Below, one piece after another: positions 2,213 through 3,913 of a DNA stretch of 64,000 nt. A program made the position numbers and the translations under genes. Source of the stretch: an uncultured Bacteroidota bacterium. Its GTDB lineage: Bacteria > Bacteroidota > Bacteroidia > Flavobacteriales > Flavobacteriaceae. The notes under the pieces were generated by a model. The model was not told the DNA's origin. It did no database searches and worked only from the letters and a program-made list of their open reading frames with translations. Every line of letters begins with the position of its first letter. The stretch's first letter is position 1. Where the stretch lies: contig CACCYT010000001.1 in NCBI GenBank assembly GCA_902550325.1, positions 1 to 64,000 on the forward strand, written 5' to 3'.

Positions 2213-2255
2213 TATGTTATTAGTTCTAAAAGAGGTTTTGAATTTTTTCACAGTC

Positions 2256-2331
2256 AAATTTCGTTTTACGAAATTTAGTTTAGCATCTAAACAGTTTTTA
2301 AACTGTTGCTAATTGAGAAAGTAAACTAAAT
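2256..2331 (+). promoter_or_regulatory. Candidate structured 5' leader of rpsB with mutually exclusive stems
   Basis: Inverted repeats: AAATTTCG(2256-2263)/CGAAATTT(2269-2276); AACAGTT(2290-2296)/AACTGTT(2301-2307) enclosed by TTAGC(2280-2284)/GCTAA(2308-2312); and a 10-bp perfect outer pair ATTTAGTTTA(2273-2282)/TAAACTAAAT(2322-2331) ending 13 nt before the rpsB ATG. Confidence 0.5.
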
Positions 2332-2344
2332 ATATTATGACAAT

Positions 2345-3082
2345 ATGGAAATAAAAGAATTAGTAAAAGCAGGGGTTCACTTTGGACATCTTACAAGAAA
2401 ATGGAACCCTAATATGTCCCCTTACATATATTCCGAAAAAAACGGTATACATATAATTAATCTTTACAAAACAATTCAAAAGCTTGAAGAATCATGTTCA
2501 GCGTTGGAAAAAATTGCTTCTTCAGGTCGCAAAATATTATTTGTTGCAACCAAAAAACAAGCAAAAGACATCGTTTCCAAATACGCAGAAGAAGTTAAAA
2601 TGCCTTACATTACAGAGCGCTGGCCAGGCGGTATGTTAACAAATTTTGTTACAATTCGAAAGGCTGTTAAAAAAATGTCAGCGATTGACAGGTCTAAGCA
2701 AGACGGTACTTTTGAATCTTTATCAAAAAAAGAAAAATTAAGTGTTAATAGAACAAGAGCTAAACTTGAAAAAAACCTTGGCTCAATTAATTCCATGACT
2801 AGACTTCCTGGAGCAATTTTTGTTGTAGATATAAGAAGAGAACACATAGCTGTAAGAGAAGCGATTAAGTTGAATATTCCCATATTTGCTATGATAGATA
2901 CAAACACCGATCCTAGATTAGTTGATTTTGGGATCCCTGCAAATGATGATGCTTCCAAATCAATTGAAATTATTCTCAACAAAGTGACTAGCTCAATAAA
3001 GTCAGGACTTGACCAAAGAAACAAAGAAAAAGAAGAAGAGCAAGCTAAAATTGAGAAAGAGAATAGCCAGGAAAAAAATTAA
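2345..3082 (+). CDS. rpsB: 30S ribosomal protein S2
   Basis: LVKAGVHFGHLTRKWNPNMSPYIY..., ERWPGGMLTNFVTIRKAVKKM, IPIFAMIDTNTDPRLVDFGIPANDDASKSI. Confidence 0.98.
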   Translation: MEIKELVKAGVHFGHLTRKWNPNMSPYIYSEKNGIHIINLYKTIQKLEESCSALEKIASSGRKILFVATKKQAKDIVSKYAEEVKMPYITERWPGGMLTNFVTIRKAVKKMSAIDRSKQDGTFESLSKKEKLSVNRTRAKLEKNLGSINSMTRLPGAIFVVDIRREHIAVREAIKLNIPIFAMIDTNTDPRLVDFGIPANDDASKSIEIILNKVTSSIKSGLDQRNKEKEEEQAKIEKENSQEKN

Positions 3083-3085
3083 ATT

Positions 3086-3913
3086 ATGGGAAATATTTCT
3101 GCTAGTGAAGTCAATAAATTGAGAAAAGCAACTGGTGCTGGCATAATGGATTGTAAAAATGCTTTGGTTGAATCGAATGGTAATTTTGATCTTGCTATTG
3201 AAAATCTTAGAAAAAAAGGCCAAAAAGTTGCAGCAAAAAGAGCTGACAGAGAATCCAGTGAAGGTGCAGTTATAGCTACCGTCAATAATGAAAATAATTC
3301 TGGTGTTATTATTTCATTAAATTGTGAGACTGATTTTGTAGCTAAAAATGAATCTTTTGTAAATCTTGCCAAACAAATTTCTGAGATTGCACTAAGTTGT
3401 AATACAATTGATGATCTTTTTAACTCAAGGTTTGATAGTGAAACGTCTGTAAAAGAAAAGCTCACAGAACAAACAGGAGTTATTGGCGAAAAAATTGAAA
3501 TTGGTAGTTTTGAAAAACTTAAATCAAAATTTGTAGGTTATTATATACATGCTGGAAATAAAATAGCCACACTTGTAGGTTTGACAGAAAATTTTGGGGG
3601 ATGCGATGATGTTGCAAAAAATATTGCGATGCAAGCCGCGGCAATGAATCCAATTGCTTTGGATGAAAGCGGTGTATCAAAAGAAGTTATTGAAAAGGAG
3701 ATTGAAATAGCTAAGGAACAACTAAGATCAGAAGGTAAACCTGAAAATATGCTTGAGAATATTGCTAAGGGAAAACTGAAAAAGTTTTTTAAAGAAAATA
3801 CACTAGTCAATCAAGCCTATATCAAGGATAGTAAAATTAGTGTTGTTAATTACCTCCAATCTGTAAATCAAAATTGCTCTATTTCTGATTTTAAAAGGGT
3901 ATCACTAGTCTGA
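3086..3913 (+). CDS. tsf: Translation elongation factor Ts
   Basis: VNKLRKATGAGIMDCKNALVESNGNFDLAIENLRKKG...LNCETDFVAKNE; located directly after rpsB. Confidence 0.98.
   Translation: MGNISASEVNKLRKATGAGIMDCKNALVESNGNFDLAIENLRKKGQKVAAKRADRESSEGAVIATVNNENNSGVIISLNCETDFVAKNESFVNLAKQISEIALSCNTIDDLFNSRFDSETSVKEKLTEQTGVIGEKIEIGSFEKLKSKFVGYYIHAGNKIATLVGLTENFGGCDDVAKNIAMQAAAMNPIALDESGVSKEVIEKEIEIAKEQLRSEGKPENMLENIAKGKLKKFFKENTLVNQAYIKDSKISVVNYLQSVNQNCSISDFKRVSLV

Follow-up and report, generated by a model that had tools for sequence, protein, structure and literature searches.

A conserved pseudoknotted leader of rpsB in Flavobacteriales, a probable site of autocontrol by ribosomal protein S2

The rpsB gene of an uncultured member of the Flavobacteriaceae is preceded by a conserved RNA element, in which a basal helix (P1) is predicted to be capped by two hairpins (P2 and P3), and the junction UUAGUUUA between them to make a pseudoknot with UAAACUAA, the strand just 3' of P1. 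We consider this element to be, probably, a Bacteroidia form of the S2 autoregulatory leader, in which occlusion by the pseudoknot would repress initiation and S2 is the presumed ligand. The features of the element in the window, that is, the whole 64,000-nucleotide stretch of DNA analyzed, are given in Table 1.

Table 1. Features of the rpsB leader and its surroundings, in positions of the window.
Feature	Position	Strand	Remarks
rpsI-rpsB intergenic leader, 132 nt	2213..2344	+	rpsI stop ends at 2212; rpsB ATG at 2345
P1, candidate 5' strand (UUUUUUCA)	2243..2250	+	pairs with 2314-2321 (UGAGAAAG), two G-U pairs
P2 (hairpin 1)	2256..2276	+	core 2259-2264/2268-2273, optional AAA:UUU extension
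K5, pseudoknot 5' strand (UUAGUUUA)	2275..2282	+	long stem adds 2273-2274
J, conserved junction (GCAUCUAAA)	2283..2291	+	its GCA pairs with UGC 2307-2309
P3, apical hairpin CAGUU/AACUG	2292..2305	+	strongest covariation of the element
UUGC, closing J	2306..2309	+	conserved in family leaders and class
GAAAG, an instance of conserved GAA(C/A/U/G)G	2317..2321	+	ahead of the pseudoknot strand; family and class leaders
K3, pseudoknot 3' strand (UAAACUAAAU)	2322..2331	+	3' end 13 nt before the rpsB ATG
rpsB (ribosomal protein S2), presumed target	2345..3082	+	followed by tsf, 3086-3913

The first-pass annotation had reported three inverted repeats in this leader, and all of them lie where it had placed them: hairpin 1 (arms 2256-2264 and 2268-2276), the outer stem of hairpin 2 (UUAGC, 2280-2284, with GCUAA, 2308-2312) and a long stem of 10 bp (AUUUAGUUUA, 2273-2282, with UAAACUAAAU, 2322-2331). 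The leader has a GC content of 23%, and a perfect stem of at least 10 bp with a span of at least 40 arose in 67 of 2000 dinucleotide shuffles of it (around 3%); by itself, the 10-bp long-range stem is weak evidence. Thermodynamic folding alone was uninformative both for the whole leader, whose minimum free energy (MFE) was barely better than that of shuffles (z -0.86), and for 2256-2344 (z -2.1). The folding energies are unremarkable, and the element cannot be judged from the window alone. A covariance model whose alignment contained the window site scored this site at 53.9 bits (E 1.2e-8) and nothing else in the 64 kb above 14.3 bits, and a second model, with an alignment that has no more than the family in common with the window, found no rival site in the window genome. 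The gene order rpsI-leader-rpsB is also kept in relatives. In the list of open reading frames, rplM (1349-1822) and rpsI (1826-2212) open with TTG rather than ATG.

We located rpsB in 19 of the 23 genomes of the genus and in 147 of the 151 of the family, and added 80 further named Flavobacteriaceae loci from a genome scan; 188 Flavobacteriaceae loci gave 187 leaders, 181 of them distinct. Every one of the 181 carried the element with both strands of the long stem conserved, in the order UUAGUUUA-GCAUCUAAA-hairpin-UUGC-loop-GAACG-UAAACUA-AUG, and the core GUUUAGCAUCUAAA ... GAACGUAAACUA showed very few substitutions in any of them. The hairpin segment between the core blocks was freely variable in sequence and ranged from 13 to 79 nt, and a second hairpin lay 5' of the core blocks in most family leaders. 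Junction J was near-invariant in these 181 leaders and reads GC/GU-A-UC-AA in most of the class; the GUUUA core of K5 was present in nearly all distinct leaders, and the UAAAC of K3 was near-invariant. Because the element is conserved and covaries across relatives, it is not a product of chance: although the shuffles that match the 10-bp stem and the unexceptional MFE of the whole leader would suit inverted repeats that arose by chance in an AT-rich sequence, that reading is already refuted by hundreds of genomes in which the element is conserved and covaries, and we assign it practically no weight. Two further observations concern the flanks of the element. The sequence AAGUUCAU recurs in a number of leaders, about 40-120 nt upstream of the core, where in some it could pair with the GAAC of GAACG, and several relatives have a strong hairpin, sometimes terminator-like, just after the rpsI stop, which might separate the rplM-rpsI from the rpsB-tsf mRNA.

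The covariation for which the first-pass annotation had looked to related rpsB leaders was found, and is strong in P2 and P3. We used two alignments, one of 20 family sequences hand-picked as clean examples (A1) and one of 24 class-wide sequences (A2). P1, P2 and P3 together were paired in 89% of cells in A1 compared with 27-45% at slid registers, and in 89.5% in A2 compared with 30-45%, P2 percentages being partly by construction since its candidates were chosen for three outer pairs. The corresponding covariation scores were 0.350 in A1 (0.05-0.14 when slid) and 0.525 in A2 (0.07-0.14). The P2 helix is kept with unrelated sequences, and in A1 each of its four pairs showed changes in both partners, although the outer pairs had guided the choice of segment there. 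P1 and P3 segments were not selected by pairing in the position-anchored alignment. All seven P3 pairs changed on both sides class-wide (A2), and P3 supplied top pairs in a tree-based test. In relatives, P3 is interrupted asymmetrically by a conserved 5' G-R-C facing 3' G-C-Y-A-C (GGC/GCCAC or GAC/GCUAC), which is likely to be a protein contact; this interruption is absent from the window genus, whose P3 is short.

The 5' strand of P1 lies directly 5' of P2 in relatives and pairs with the nucleotides directly 5' of GAACG, in covarying forms such as UUGUUG:CAACAG, UCGUUG:CAACGG, CUGUUA:UGACAG and UCGUA:UACGG. In the position-anchored alignment, P1 was 72.6% paired at the right register and 20-62% when slid. 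An unconstrained search for P1 over long upstream regions was noisy, only 21% of sequences reaching p <=0.05; the case for P1 is based on the position-anchored alignment. In the window, which comes from an AT-rich genus, P1 pairing is weak (A-U and G-U) and ambiguous, with 2251-2254:2312-2315 as an alternative, and some relatives have neither P1 nor P2.

The long stem has its 5' strand in the P2-P3 junction and its 3' strand just outside P1; it thus crosses P1 and is a pseudoknot. Among the Flavobacteriaceae it hardly varies, and its covariation there cannot be scored. Outside the family, leaders drawn one per family across the class, together with leaders from model matches, supplied compensated forms (AGUUUA:UAAACU, UGUUUA:UAAACA and CGUUUA:UAAACG), and a GC-rich genus has GGGUUCA:UGAACCC. 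The stem was 86.5% paired in A2, where its outer pair was AU in 7 sequences, UA in 6, CG in 2, GC in 1 and GU in 1. In a set of 107 distinct leaders, nominally from outside the family but including some Flavobacteriaceae (the later model matches include the family), the second inner pair was TA in 98 and CG in 8, and the outer pair TA in 36, AT in 25, GC in 8 and CG in 7. Under a tree-aware null that we built ourselves after the model of R-scape, the outer pseudoknot pair ranked second of 1176 column pairs with an approximate E of 0.075, which just misses 0.05; P3 pairs had values of 0.025-0.15. An earlier tree-aware test on only 24 sequences, a sample too small to score the pseudoknot, gave no significance for it. 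The GUUUA:UAAAC core is too invariant for the alignments to prove pairing at every position, and it is the compensatory changes across the class that bear out the earlier claim of a real long-range stem. Separately, the middle base of the junction GCA/GUA (2283-2285) co-varies with the variable base of GAANG (2317-2321; A2 columns 15 and 104), C occurring with C or A and U with U or A. This column pair ranked seventh of all, with an E of about 3.3, and may hint at a tertiary contact or merely at shared ancestry.

The first-pass annotation had cast these repeats as an autogenous switch, with hairpin 1 and the outer stem of hairpin 2 each forming to the exclusion of the long stem. Their arms do overlap in the window, and UUAGC:GCUAA is 92% paired in the 20 family sequences. 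However, hairpin 1 of relatives stops a single nucleotide short of the long stem (UUAGUUUA), the two adjoining without overlap, and in the window the overlap is confined to 2-3 optional A-U basal pairs, so that P2 and the long stem can both form. UUAGC:GCUAA, for its part, showed no double change in A1 or A2 and thus no covariation; its outer pairs do not hold outside the family, the two pairs next to the GC being kept in 17 and 11 of the 24 sequences, and only the inner GC pair, which is compatible with the long stem, is conserved. We regard a switch between exclusive hairpins as very unlikely. The choice between on and off is thus more likely to lie between an open leader and a formed, S2-bound pseudoknot than in a swap of alternative hairpins.

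We then mapped the distribution of the element with a covariance model, R2, which matched 182 of 248 genomes of the order Flavobacteriales (71 of 83 genera), 55 of 295 genomes of the class Bacteroidia and, in a phylum-wide draw, 23 of 198 genomes, all within the class; nearly every matching genome had a single match. Where rpsB was independently placed, in 19 genomes across the class, the element lay immediately upstream of it in all 19. Families without the element often have an rpsI-rpsB gap of <40 nt, though it is missing from some longer gaps as well. In most leaders UAAAC is separated from the first ATG by 0-13 nt, mostly by 7-13 nt. In 16 distinct relatives, which read UAAACAUG, the 3' strand of the pseudoknot either adjoins the AUG or pairs with it; several of these have AUGUUUA opposite UAAACAU, such that the start codon itself can pair.

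The -7 promoter motif of Bacteroidota is TAnnTTTG. It was not enriched in the leaders (5 of 156, with 13 expected), which fits co-transcription from upstream and hence a leader that is part of the mRNA; the element most likely belongs to an rplM-rpsI-rpsB-tsf transcript. A promoter just upstream of rpsB was considered and rejected, the motif being under-represented in the leaders and the sole -7 motif in 1301-2345 being at 1344, before rplM. A transcription attenuator or intrinsic terminator was likewise set aside, as the leaders inspected have no U run after the stem and K3 is followed by an A-rich spacer and the AUG.

As the first-pass annotation had stated for other bacteria, S2 regulates its own operon: in E. 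coli it is established that S2 represses the translation of rpsB-tsf (PMC10931766). The known rpsB motif, listed for Proteobacteria, Cyanobacteria and some Firmicutes with no Bacteroidetes among them, consists of a P1 capped by P2 and P3, both optional, with J2-3 forming a pseudoknot with sequence 3' of P1 (Meyer et al., 2009, PMC2704228). The element shares this topology, P1, P2, P3 and pseudoknot being supported in relatives, as well as the position upstream of rpsB-tsf, and GGGGU:ACCCC, read from the E. coli leader sequence, corresponds in place to its GUUUA:UAAAC. The conserved letters differ, those of the element being GCAUCYAAA, a bulged P3 (G-R-C/G-C-Y-A-C) and GAANG. In the element, mostly 0-13 nt separate the pseudoknot strand from the AUG, compared with about 25 nt in E. 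coli, where the rpsB ribosome-binding site is outside the operator (PMC10931766). The shared topology could reflect either very deep descent or convergence. The E. coli form, t44 (Rfam RF00127), matched none of 61 Bacteroidota genomes and nothing in the window, its E. coli control being positive, and R2 in turn gave no match above 2 bits in the E. coli leader. Rfam searches at gathering and relaxed thresholds returned no credible match to the element. A conserved, covarying element with no Rfam match agrees with the earlier proposal of a distinct Bacteroidota rpsB leader.

Other ribosomal-protein leaders are known from the same lineage. In Eckert and Weinberg (2020, PMC7247131), the L13 leader of Bacteroidia is listed for operons beginning with rplM; it shares the operon (rplM, rpsI and sometimes rpsB) and the lineage with the element, but by its description lies upstream of rplM rather than between rpsI and rpsB. 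According to the same paper, S4, S15 and S16 leaders, the S4 type described as a hairpin, occur in Flavobacteria and are lineage-specific like the element but belong to other genes, and no S2 leader appears there among the 20 motifs. Our search of the main texts of openly accessible literature found no description of an S2 leader in Bacteroidota.

Gene context and topology suggest that the leader very probably mediates autocontrol by S2, the part of the first-pass reading that holds, its mechanism of exclusive stems having fallen. Free S2 in excess over 30S subunits would most likely bind the conserved core, putatively the GCAUCYAAA junction, the bulged P3 and GAANG, and stabilise the pseudoknot. 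This would occupy the few nucleotides before the start codon, or include the codon itself, and so block 30S loading on rpsB, and coupling would lower tsf too. The same leader might instead respond to EF-Ts, whose gene tsf directly follows rpsB in the window, to another ribosomal protein or to a small molecule; yet the element precedes rpsB wherever checked, its topology matches that of S2 leaders and S2 is the repressor in E. coli (PMC10931766), which makes another ligand unlikely. We see slightly less room still for an element of processing, stability or ribosome loading that acts without feedback, for example by fixing the rate of rpsB translation after rplM-rpsI. The leader does sit mid-operon with A-rich sequence near the AUG, and Bacteroidota initiation regions tend to be A-rich. 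On the other hand, a near-invariant junction and bulged helix across the whole order resemble protein recognition, and the start codon of some relatives is a possible partner of the pseudoknot strand. Mimicry of 16S rRNA was rejected, short word matches to the flavobacterial 16S region being no more than chance; the leader word CGUAAAC is shared with 16S, where it immediately precedes the h25/h26 region close to the S2 site, but chance alone is expected to give word matches of this length.

On balance, we lean towards an undescribed S2 leader family that spans most of the Flavobacteriales and reaches several further families of the class; here S2 would act by locking a pseudoknot onto the start-codon region. 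Feedback by S2 has been documented in Proteobacteria. In Bacteroidota the ribosomes conceal their anti-Shine-Dalgarno (PMC10931766), which raises the question of how Bacteroidota leaders block initiation; the element offers a compact, genetically testable case. Leaders of the S2 topology are listed in several phyla, Bacteroidota not among them, and the element would fill this gap; kept in 71 of the 83 sampled genera of the order, it could join Rfam. That distant phyla share the architecture but not the sequence is relevant to the question of an ancient or a convergent origin of S2 leaders. If our reading is correct, these bacteria would possess a form of initiation feedback that fits a lineage in which Shine-Dalgarno pairing is not used.
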